This document shows, in pieces, positions 16,600-31,315 of a stretch of 38,487 bases of DNA. The DNA is from a virus. Position numbers and translations under genes: made by a program. A model generated the notes under the pieces. The model did no database searches and had not been told where the DNA came from. It saw nothing but the letters and a program-made list of their open reading frames with translations. Every line of letters begins with the position of its first letter. The first letter of the stretch is position 1. The DNA is taken from positions 1 to 38,487 of IMG/VR virus record IMGVR_UViG_3300042401_001086. One strand, 5' to 3'.

Positions 16600-17154
16600 A
16601 TGGAAGCAATGGAAGCAATCGGAATGAATGAAGTAGGATTTTTACTTTCTAAAATTCAAAATGAAATCAAGGTTAATAAAAACCAATGGAATGCATTCGG
16701 TAAATATAAATACCGCTCAGTAGAGGATATTCAGGTAGCATTAAAACCAATCTGTTTGAAATATGAGAGTGCGGTTATCCTGACAGACGAATCATTTGAG
16801 TTGTGTGGAATACCAGTAGTTAGAGCAACCGCAAGATTTGTATGCCCATTCGGAGAGATAGTTGTTACTGCTGATGCAGGAGTTGATGTGCATCAAAAAG
16901 GTATGAATTATGCTCAGGCATTCGGAGCGAGTTCGTCATACGCAAGAAAATATGCGCTTGGGGGGTTGCTACTTTTAGACGATGTTGCTGATGCAGATGC
17001 TACTGAAAAGCACGACAAATCAGAAATAAAAGGATTGACTGATGCTCAGGTGAAATCTGCAATTGAAAAAGGAAATAAGCAGAAAGTATTGGAAGGAAAC
17101 GGAACAAAATGGATTCTTACAGATTTACAAATTAAATCATTGAAAGGTGAGTAA
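16600..17154 (+). CDS. erf: ERF-family single-strand DNA annealing protein
   Basis: 184 residues. It shows the ERF signatures: GKYKYRSVEDIQVALKPI near residue 28, and AQAFGASSSYARKYALGGLL with LLDDVADADAT near 107-137. The C-terminus is short and lysine-rich. ERF proteins anneal complementary single strands during phage recombination and genome circularisation. The YqaJ-type exonuclease at 17824 would supply the single-stranded substrate. Its stop codon TAA is also the first part of the palindromic element at 17152. Confidence 0.88.
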   Translation: MEAMEAIGMNEVGFLLSKIQNEIKVNKNQWNAFGKYKYRSVEDIQVALKPICLKYESAVILTDESFELCGIPVVRATARFVCPFGEIVVTADAGVDVHQKGMNYAQAFGASSSYARKYALGGLLLLDDVADADATEKHDKSEIKGLTDAQVKSAIEKGNKQKVLEGNGTKWILTDLQIKSLKGE

Positions 17155-17229
17155 CGGTCGGGTGCTTGGCGAAGTGGCTTTGTGTGTTGGCTTTGAGCGT
17201 TGGGAAGCCATTTTGCCAAACACCTGTTA
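17152..17229. repeat. Large imperfect palindrome (element A), attC-like
   Basis: TAAC...GTTA ends enclose nested arms: GGTG/CACC (17161-17164 with 17221-17224) and a 15-bp arm, TTGGCGAAGTGGCTT (17166-17180) with AAGCCATTTTGCCAA (17205-17219), including two G-U pairs. It is clearly richer in G+C than its surroundings. The outer right end GTTATCGGAA is complementary to 17552-17561 rather than to its own left end. It may serve as a terminator-like hairpin for erf, but there is no T run. Confidence 0.7.
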
Positions 17230-17265
17230 TCGGAAGCCTTTTATTCACAATCAAATTTTAAAACA

Positions 17266-17532
17266 ATGATACAAGTAACAGTTGACGGAAAAACAAGGGT
17301 AATAAGGGGTAAGCAAATCCATTACCAAACAGAAAATGATTTAGAATGTACTTACAAAGACCACCTTATTTGCATTGCGAAACAAGAAGCTACAAACGAC
17401 TTCTATATTACAGTAAGAGATAAGACTGGAATGTATGCAGTTCAAGGTGGTTTTGGTGGTGATTATTGTCGCTACGGAATTGAAACTATTGAAGACTGTT
17501 TGGTAATGTGTATCAAAAACATTCTTCTGTAA
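17266..17532 (+). CDS. Small hypothetical protein, candidate cassette-borne gene
   Basis: 88 residues from the ATG at 17266. A TTG-type start at 17200 would read through the palindrome and is unlikely. It has a beta-rich N-terminus (IQVTVDGKTRVIRGKQIHY), then FYITVRDKTGMYAVQGGFGG and DYCRYGIETIEDCLVMCI. It is bracketed by GTTATCGGAA (17226) and its reverse complement (17552), as if inserted as a unit. It touches the next gene by a 1-base overlap (TAATG). I do not recognise a family with known function. Confidence 0.6.
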   Translation: MIQVTVDGKTRVIRGKQIHYQTENDLECTYKDHLICIAKQEATNDFYITVRDKTGMYAVQGGFGGDYCRYGIETIEDCLVMCIKNILL

Positions 17533-17798
17533 TGTCGGGGTCTTTTAAGGTTTCCGATAACATTGTGTATTGGCGAATGAAAGATGGTAGAAAAATATCC
17601 ATAGATGATATGGATATTAACCATCTGCGTAACTCTCTAAAAATGGTTGTTAGAGGTCTTGAAAGATTGGAGCAGGAACAACTAAGAAAGAGGTCAAAGC
17701 CTAAATTCGAATTGCGTGGAGATATAGCCCAGGATCATTTTGATATTATGATGGATAATGAGTGGGCAGATGAAATGAATTATCATCAAGGATTGTAA
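17532..17798 (+). CDS. Small hypothetical protein (conserved-looking DMD-NHL motif)
   Basis: 88 residues from the ATG at 17532; an internal ATG at 17578 could also be the start. The core YWRMKDGRKISIDDMDINHL is followed by RNSLKMVVRGLERLE. It looks like a compact conserved module, followed by a charged C-terminal helix. The coding DNA around 17584-17626 is itself a strong palindrome (GATGGT...ACCATC, AATATCCAT...ATGGATATT). Function unknown; it sits between erf and the exonuclease. Confidence 0.55.
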   Translation: MSGSFKVSDNIVYWRMKDGRKISIDDMDINHLRNSLKMVVRGLERLEQEQLRKRSKPKFELRGDIAQDHFDIMMDNEWADEMNYHQGL

Positions 17799-19183: not shown

Positions 19184-19215
19184 AGTAAGAATACACCCAA
19201 CATTAAAGAAAAGAT

Positions 19216-19281
19216 TATAACATTTTGCAACTATACGCATCTTGGATATGTACGTTTTTGCGTATAGATGCTGTTAGGTGC
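19216..19281. repeat. Palindromic element B, attC-like
   Basis: TAACA (19218-19222) and TGTTA (19272-19276) flank GCA/TGC (19227-19229 and 19269-19271) and a perfect 9-bp arm, CTATACGCA (19231-19239) with TGCGTATAG (19259-19267). The TAA of TAAC is the stop of the frame-corrected RlpA-like gene. The right end GTTAGGTGC (19273-19281) is fully complementary to GCACCTAAC at 19529-19537 beyond the next gene. Confidence 0.7.
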
Positions 19282-19306
19282 AGTATTTAATTTTAAAATA
19301 ATATTT

Positions 19307-19498
19307 ATGTCAAACGAAATAACAACTAAAAGAGAAGATACTATTGAAGTTATAACAATAGATTATTATACAGGTGAAGGTTTAGATGAACTCAACATTT
19401 CAATTTACAATAAACTATGTGGAGATTTAGCTAACATTTGTTTAAACGAATCAGAAGTAAGGAAATTAAGAGATTTACTTAATGAATGGATACAATAA
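19307..19498 (+). CDS. Small acidic hypothetical protein, candidate cassette-borne gene
   Basis: 63 residues from the ATG at 19307. An in-frame ATG at 19268 lies within the palindrome and is less likely. It has a beta-rich N-terminus (TIEVITIDYYTG) and a helical C-terminus with NESEVRKLRDLLNEWIQ, a pattern like small Bacteroidota phage proteins. It lies alone between palindromes B and C and is bracketed by the 9-bp inverted repeat GTTAGGTGC / GCACCTAAC. Function unknown. Confidence 0.58.
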   Translation: MSNEITTKREDTIEVITIDYYTGEGLDELNISIYNKLCGDLANICLNESEVRKLRDLLNEWIQ

Positions 19499-19504
19499 TA
19501 AATG

Positions 19505-19583
19505 TCGTTCGGGTGCATATGTAATATTGCACCTAACGAAGAAATAAGCAATCGTTTTAATGTTGCTTATGGAATGTTATAAG
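19505..19583. repeat. Palindromic element C, attC-like
   Basis: A first hairpin uses GGTGC (19512-19516) and GCACC (19529-19533). The second is TAAC (19534-19537) ... GTTA (19576-19579) enclosing the perfect 8-bp arms ATAAGCAA (19544-19551) and TTGCTTAT (19563-19570). Its right end TGTTATAA (19575-19582) is complementary to TTATAACA in element B (19215-19222). The element has no coding frame. Confidence 0.7.
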
Positions 19584-19601
19584 ATTTAAAATTGAAAAGT
19601 A

Positions 19602-30831: not shown

Positions 30832-31315
30832 TAGTGATTTCATTCAAAAGTTTGAGTTGTCTACTGGAATGTACTCAAACCATAAGATTGACGAATACAT
30901 AGACAGATATGAAGACCAATACCTGATTCAATTATTGGGTGTTGAGTTGTATAATTTGTTTATTGCTGATTTAGACCTAAACAATATTCCTCAGAGTGAT
31001 AGATTCAAGAAAATATTTGATCCGTTCAACGAACAGATTGGTTTTTCCCTGATGATGTCAAGAGGAATTAAAGATATGTTGATTGGGTTTATCTATTTTG
31101 AGTACCTGAAAGACTTAATCACTAAAACTACAAATGTTGGTGTGACTAAGCCACAAGAACAAAACTCAAAAATCATTACTGCTCATACGACAATTTATGG
31201 CAGATATAACGAATCAATTAGAACATACAATGCGATTCAGGAGTACATATTGTTAAGTATGAATGATTATAATGAATTTAAAGGAGTGCAAAAATTATAC
31301 GCTTATTGGTTATGA
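30812..31315 (+). CDS. Head-tail connector, DUF6712-like
   Basis: 167 residues from the ATG at 30812 (a GTG at 30779 is less likely). The pattern KIDEYIDRYEDQYLIQLLGV followed by ELYNLF matches the start of Bacteroidota phage connector proteins of the DUF6712 type. A helical bundle follows with MLIGFIYFEYLKDLITKTTN and YNESIRTYNAIQEYILLSMN. It would sit under the portal as gp6/gp15-type adaptor. The next gene starts within its stop (ATGA). Confidence 0.7.
   Translation: MARFVISSDFIQKFELSTGMYSNHKIDEYIDRYEDQYLIQLLGVELYNLFIADLDLNNIPQSDRFKKIFDPFNEQIGFSLMMSRGIKDMLIGFIYFEYLKDLITKTTNVGVTKPQEQNSKIITAHTTIYGRYNESIRTYNAIQEYILLSMNDYNEFKGVQKLYAYWL

Follow-up and report, generated by a model that had tools for sequence, protein, structure and literature searches.

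The window analysed here, a linear virus record from IMG/VR (38,487 bases, 32% G+C) taken at its full length, carries a gene of 63 aa between two hairpins, B and C, and a second hairpin-and-gene unit that begins at the end of an ERF-family gene. The features are as follows.

17156-17561, + strand: unit 1 (the second unit found), hairpin H1 plus cassette
17156-17225, + strand: hairpin H1, a predicted folded site starting directly at the stop codon of the ERF-family gene (TAA, 17152-17154)
17226-17561, + strand: cassette of unit 1 with arms GTTATCGGAAGCCTT / AAGGTTTCCGATAAC, G.T at position 11
17266-17532, + strand: gene of unit 1, 88 aa
17562-17577, + strand: possible half site ATTGTGTATTGGCGAA at the 3' end of unit 1, a left hairpin half only, recognised by eye from its likeness to other hairpin starts
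19219-19221, + strand: left AAC joint of unit 2, the predicted recombination point, equivalent to the AAC joints of phages Freya and Danklef (below)
19222-19537, + strand: unit 2, hairpin B plus gene, ending in ..TAAC
19222-19272, + strand: hairpin B, predicted folded site of unit 2, assigned to the gene 3' of it by architecture and linkage tests
19273-19287, + strand: left arm GTTAGGTGCAGTATT, with the G of position 11 at 19283; 14 of 15 bases complementary, plus the G.T, to 19523-19537
19307-19498, + strand: cassette gene, an open reading frame of 63 aa
19523-19537, + strand: right arm AATATTGCACCTAAC, its last three bases forming the right AAC joint
19538-19575, + strand: hairpin C, which belongs to a neighbouring insertion and not to the 63-aa gene
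19576-19590, + strand: right arm of hairpin C, without a convincing partner in the window

The original prediction had placed four arms at the borders of B and C, and all four were found there (TTATAACA, 19215-19222; GTTAGGTGC, 19273-19281; GCACCTAAC, 19529-19537; and TGTTATAA, 19575-19582), as was the limited pairing of the outer ends inside each hairpin, which is confined to 4 bases (TAAC/GTTA). The crossed pairing between the right end of B and the left end of C proved stronger than had been claimed, extending to 15 nt, with 14 matches between GTTAGGTGCAGTATT and AATATTGCACCTAAC and a G.T at position 11 (numbered from GTT). Scanning the whole window returned two 15-nt pairs with G.T at this position (17226-17561 and 19273-19537), and pairs of the same quality occurred at a mean of 0.01 per window in 100 dinucleotide-shuffled windows. 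The other crossed pair, between the left end of B and the right end of C, is present but at chance level: it spans 7 bases from GTT inward, 4 of which are the TAAC/GTTA common to most such sites, and 6.6% of random arm pairings within the system equal it. A partner search in the rest of the window returned none convincing for the left arm of B or the right arm of C. The proposal that an older attC site had been split by a nested insertion rests on this outer pair, which is not significant, and is unsupported. At the level of motifs, GTTAGGT matches GTTRRRY, the stems are present, and the left box of B (TTATAAC) departs from strict RYYYAAC; taken together, the sites show the imperfect hairpin, RYYYAAC/GTTRRRY outer boxes and inner paired boxes by which attC sites are recognised, and Rfam families gave no match to them.

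The 63-aa frame is open, and its product is 65-68% identical to relatives in the viral contigs L007, L096, L097 and L098, where they also lie in cassettes. These viral relatives were missed by single-sequence search and recovered by a two-sequence profile; the relatives of the protein form a shallow set of six, none was found in cultured phages, and Pfam gave no family above its cut-off. L007 and L096-L098 carry the same gene family as the window, yet other hairpins; the arms read GTTAGGTGCAG/..TTGCACCTAAC in the window and GTTAGGCGAAG/..CGCCTAAC in these four contigs.

Hairpin arrays in related viruses

No near-identical phage was found in the cultured collection, and the relatives L002, L006 and L007 were reached through conserved neighbours (rlpA-like and yqaJ-like genes). 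L006 and L007 contain tandem arrays of small genes with hairpins between them, and in L007 the array interrupts the yqaJ-like gene after residue 152. The hairpin core common to L006 and L007 was found in 74 viral stretches; BLAST of cultured phages with this core returned none, while the exact core gave 7 matches in 84,980 bacterial genomes, one of them in clear context (L083, a Flavobacterium MAG). IMG/VR contigs may contain bacterial DNA wrongly classed as viral; the phages Freya and Danklef have been cultured. At ~40 distinct sites, the partner of the upstream arm is the start of its own cassette and not that of its neighbour, and G/T at position 11 is the commonest mismatch among 220 arm pairs taken from viral loci, each strand being counted on its own. 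Most of the counts come from an arm finder that requires G.T at this position, and they therefore underestimate cassettes that lack it.

The hairpin architecture was surveyed in 96 distinct hairpins lying between confirmed cassettes at recombinase-selected loci. Nearly all start with AACG (95/96) and all end in TGTT, in 67 of the 96 the stem is separated from AAC by 5 nt and from GTT by 1-2 nt, and at least 8 of 9 stem pairs are formed in 95% of the hairpins compared to 2% after shuffling. Hairpin H1 fits this architecture fully. Hairpin B has a spacer of 5 nt, a stem with one mismatch and a spacer of 1 nt, and starts with AACA, in contrast to the family's AACG. The AACG...TGTT borders of hairpin C fit the family; its right spacer is 4 nt compared to the usual 1-2, and it folds weakly in place (-5.1 kcal/mol, z -0.98).

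Most of the cargo is uncharacterised by Pfam: among 108 cassette proteins of at least 75 aa, 95 or more had no match, the matches comprised 13 families, and DNA methyltransferases (five proteins) were the commonest known cargo. In Freya_10 (L180, 1-4147), some units hold one gene in the hairpin loop and another after it, a layout in which one unit can carry two or more genes. In L002 (2721-3085), the segment after the hairpin of the ERF-family gene contains a second copy of the end of this gene, as if a gene fragment had been captured by a cassette.

A tyrosine recombinase beside the arrays

The phage of the window had been described as having no tyrosine recombinase, and the Pfam domain search bears this out: PF00589 is absent from the window record, and no Pfam tyrosine recombinase domain was found in the window or its three nearest relatives. 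With H1, B and C, the window matches the description of a CALIN, that is, at least two attC-like sites with the integrase absent from the element. Among 50 array-bearing records, four encode a Pfam tyrosine recombinase, in three of them on the array strand, 0.7 to 4.7 kb further downstream. Five such proteins of ~267 aa were aligned (A2), and the best 80 viral loci, chosen by A2 alone, were used as test loci. Cassettes lay upstream on the same strand in 66 of the 67 recombinase-chosen loci with more than 600 bp upstream. Of the units at recombinase loci, 272 were upstream in the orientation of the recombinase, 4 were upstream in the reverse orientation and 15 were downstream; shuffled sequence gave 10 in all. 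The nearest cassette typically ends ~50 nt before the recombinase gene, and the interval that separates the array from this gene holds a conserved site free of hairpins, AACTATTATATATA, in 74 of 76 loci, with a median of 56 nt from its AAC to the start of the match; in Freya the recombinase site is AACACCCCTATAACAACAATAAG. A primary site, meaning an attachment site beside the integrase at which new cassettes enter, is a property of the phage system and not of the window. A bacterial IntI is not required as the enzyme, for which the original prediction had considered a host source in trans, as dedicated recombinases are encoded next to the cassette arrays of many related phages. A large-terminase family was detected in 15 of 47 recombinase-chosen records; the remaining records may be partial sequences or encode different terminases.

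The best NCBIfam match of the recombinase is XerA_Arch, at 169-195 bits (cut-off 220), and the IntI model TIGR02249 scores 135-159 bits in two separate stretches (cut-off 265). Compared to IntI4, the recombinase has 34 residues in place of 82, ~48 fewer between two conserved patches. An integrase that scores as IntI and bears the IntI-specific insertion, as expected of a classical integron, is not what these phages encode.

Relatives of the recombinase were also found in 106 of 395 Bacteroidota genomes, and 5 of 12 Bacteroidota regions read contain arrays that follow the phage arm rule; these arrays are found 3' of a longer recombinase, on the strand opposite to that gene. In the Bacteroidota genomes L214, L219, L220, L221 and L222, the recombinase frames are ~350-400 aa, with arrays just 3' on the opposite strand; this layout, unlike that of the phages, is possibly a chromosomal branch of the same system. 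Given these chromosomal arrays beside longer recombinases, the system seen in phages is probably a single branch within a larger group.

Linkage of hairpins to genes and differences between isolates

Which hairpin goes with which gene was scored in homologous cassette pairs. In 50 scored pairs, a set partly chosen by a hairpin sequence, both hairpins were shared in 20, the upstream hairpin only in 19, neither in 11 and the downstream hairpin only in 0; in the recombinase-chosen set, the corresponding numbers were 37, 5, 0 and 0. The pairs in either set are not all independent, because some contigs are near-duplicates, and the 11 pairs sharing neither hairpin indicate that hairpin and gene can uncouple. 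L096 and L097 are identical through ..CGCCTAACG and then wholly different, which puts the break at the left hairpin edge. Since the hairpin is linked to the gene downstream of it, the units are 19222-19537 and 17156-17561.

Recombinase relatives annotated as 'integrase' are present in the Polaribacter phages Freya_1-10 and Danklef and in Cellulophaga phage Ingeline, and the Freya isolates come from a single host strain. Freya_10 is longer than Freya_9 by 307 bp, Freya_2 than Freya_1 by 842 bp and Freya_6 than Freya_5 by 472 bp, all three insertions lying exactly at ..AAC^ACCCCTATAACAACAATAAG beside the recombinase. In addition, Freya_10 contains a 902-bp internal unit relative to Freya_8, and Danklef_1 contains a 781-bp internal stretch relative to Danklef_2, joined at TAAC, with an adenine methylase gene in Danklef_1 only. 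The inserted Freya units have the hairpin first and the gene and ..AAC last; overall, the isolate differences are hairpin-plus-gene units joined within a shared AAC, 3 of 5 beside the recombinase. In Danklef_1-5 (MT732458-MT732462), the array varies among the isolates even though the recombinase gene seems to be cut short; an annotated antisense ORF covers part of this gene (e.g. L224, 5473-5992).

These results uphold one half of the original prediction, namely a mobile cassette whose ends pair across the gene beside folded hairpin sites, as in integrons, but not the other, in which the downstream hairpin C travels with the gene. The proposed extent of about 19274-19576 gives way to a unit of about 19222-19537, as indicated by linkage (19:0 and 5:0) and by 5 of 5 isolate differences, and the same two lines of evidence place the joint at AA|C instead of a right-hand G|TT cut, with its position uncertain within AAC. 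A hairpin-plus-gene unit would leave an empty locus reading ..GATTATAAC|GAAGAAATAAGC.., as opposed to the ..GATGCTG|TTATAAG.. expected earlier. Among related phages, no empty site was found for the 19222-19537 locus; the relative L002 has the upstream gene without B or C and is too diverged for a joint to be read.

The turnover in the isolates also bears on two other explanations. A reading in which the hairpins are terminators or conserved spacers and the genes are shuffled by phage homologous recombination (ERF, YqaJ) at short similarity is favoured by the ERF and YqaJ genes of the window phage and by the 9 and 7 nt, more than AAC, shared at the Freya_1/2 and Freya_5/6 joints. The Freya_9/10 joint, however, has AAC alone in common, 3 of 5 events fall at a single site beside the recombinase, and compensating arms 250 bp apart would be left unexplained, which makes this reading very improbable. 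The inverted repeats flanking the gene could likewise suggest a transposon or a MITE-like element with short terminal inverted repeats, but we consider this hardly credible: the units stand in tandem arrays with the hairpin as part of the unit, and insertions occur at one site beside a tyrosine recombinase. Because arm sequence differs from cassette to cassette, there are no fixed transposase ends, so that the fixed terminal repeats across copies that mark DNA transposons and MITEs are lacking, and target duplication is likewise lacking beyond the 3-nt AAC. Judged on these sequence comparisons, 19222-19537 is very probably a mobile gene cassette that belongs to an integron-like system found in Bacteroidota phages.

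Known systems and a proposed mechanism

Integrons are gene-capture platforms of bacteria, and phages have been thought to carry stray pieces of them. The phages studied here appear to own a dedicated version. Like integrons, the phage system has small promoter-poor gene units in tandem arrays, folded hairpins with GTT/AAC boxes, ends that would pair in a circle, and a simple primary site beside a tyrosine recombinase at which new units are added. Unlike integrons, its hairpin lies 5' of its gene and the genes point toward the recombinase; its arms are ~15 nt with a conserved G.T and its spacers 5 and 1-2 nt; and its recombinase is ~267 aa, lacks the IntI-specific insertion and is carried by phages. 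In a classical integron the recombination site lies at the 3' end of the cassette gene, whereas here the hairpin is linked to the downstream gene. Because neither the IntI model nor the 3' site applies, the system was not filed as a classical integron. Spirochaete integrons (reverse IntI, mentioned in PMC9668308) likewise have a non-classical orientation of the recombinase relative to the array, but the phage system also reverses hairpin polarity relative to the gene, and its recombinase is not IntI by model score. The resemblance to Xer/dif (XerA/XerC/XerD) consists in XerA_Arch being the best model and in a short, AT-rich attI-like site that is dif-like by eye; the phage recombinase differs in being linked to cassette arrays and not to chromosome dimer resolution.

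Clusters of attC sites in phages are already known: CALINs were reported in virulent phages (Qi et al. 2023, PMC9892861), and IntegronFinder 2.0 lists one complete Bacteroidetes integron, in Salinibacter (PMC9024848). Polaribacter phage P12002L, a lytic Bacteroidota phage that like the window has attC-like sites without an integrase, contains a 15/15 arm pair of the present system with G.T at position 11 (30951-31120). One could suppose a classical cassette in the window, with the gene and downstream hairpin C as the unit, a cut at the right-hand G|TT and a host IntI that moved it into an older attC. The arms and hairpins are integron-like, and IntI1 joined one of the two P12002L attC sites (attC2) in E. 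coli (PMC9892861). We nonetheless regard this as unlikely, as the hairpin is linked to the downstream gene and never to the upstream one, the outer pair is not significant and the phage family has its own recombinase. Qi et al. (PMC9892861) described isolated attC sites, and reported no dedicated phage recombinase of the present type, arm rule or unit polarity. What is new here, as far as sequence can tell, is the dedicated recombinase, the hairpin 5' of its gene, the 15-nt arms with G.T at position 11 and the natural cassette turnover in isolates. No description of a phage-owned cassette system was found in the literature, in a search short on subscription papers and bioRxiv preprints.

For the hairpin-first cassette, the following mechanism is proposed. 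In the unit as a circle, the two 15-nt arms would meet around hairpin B and could form one long folded single-stranded site; for unit 2, this circular-form site is predicted to be one long hairpin of -21.8 kcal/mol (z -8.1, DNA fold), compared to -12.1 in place. The Xer/IntI-type tyrosine recombinase, which we infer to be the enzyme, would bind the folded site and exchange one strand within AAC (complement GTT). The target would be either the dif-like simple site beside the recombinase gene (attI-like, AACTATTATATATA) or the AAC of another cassette, and in the window phage insertion may have taken place at secondary AAC sites between genes. Since the window phage has no recombinase, the enzyme would act in trans, possibly supplied by a co-infecting phage or by the host. 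We note separately that the position-11 G.T (19283 / 19527 in the window, and equivalents) is kept on the gene-sense strand in most cassettes and reads as a C-A mismatch on the opposite strand; it may set strand choice.

Taken together, it is likely that Bacteroidota phages, many of them large, own an active class of integron, with an IntI/Xer-like recombinase that has no IntI insertion, a dif-like primary site immediately 5' of the recombinase gene and hairpin-first cassettes with 15-nt arms and G.T, and that cassettes have spread from it to enzyme-less phages such as that of the window, with related arrays in Bacteroidota chromosomes, in what would amount to a gene-exchange market among phages. 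The 63-aa gene is the predicted cargo of this integron-like gene-shuffling system, which is widespread in Bacteroidota viruses. As the difference between cultured relatives is exactly one cassette, located at the predicted joint, the viruses appear to swap accessory genes singly, and because isolates of one phage, obtained from one host, are distinguished by single cassettes at its primary site, viral cassette capture is directly testable. The system offers an explanation for many small uncharacterised genes in Bacteroidota phages, and the phage recombinase may illuminate the origin of IntI from Xer. The paper on the isolation of Freya took the integrase as a hint of temperate life and mentions neither integrons nor cassettes (PMC8776804); an 'integrase' gene alone is no sign of a temperate phage.

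Two further observations concern the array ends. In three arrays at separate loci (L002, 4558-4610; L006, 7550-7600; L007, 8340-8390), what comes after the last AAC is the sequence TAATGGCTAATCG(A/C)CATATGTCGCATATACAACAA, which resembles a secondary attachment site or half a hairpin. In many contigs (L013, L018, L028, L039, L040, L045, L048, L069, L075, L076 and others), a small lipoprotein gene stands after the array end, behind the half site TTTGCAGATAAGCGAAGGC. That the gene behind the half sites encodes the enzyme of the system was considered and rejected, as it is a lipoprotein in most contigs; its start is conserved (MKTKTSIYHRTFAFAYVLLVAVIFCGC), its end is often conserved (HKGNCKFCAERSKK) and its middle is variable.
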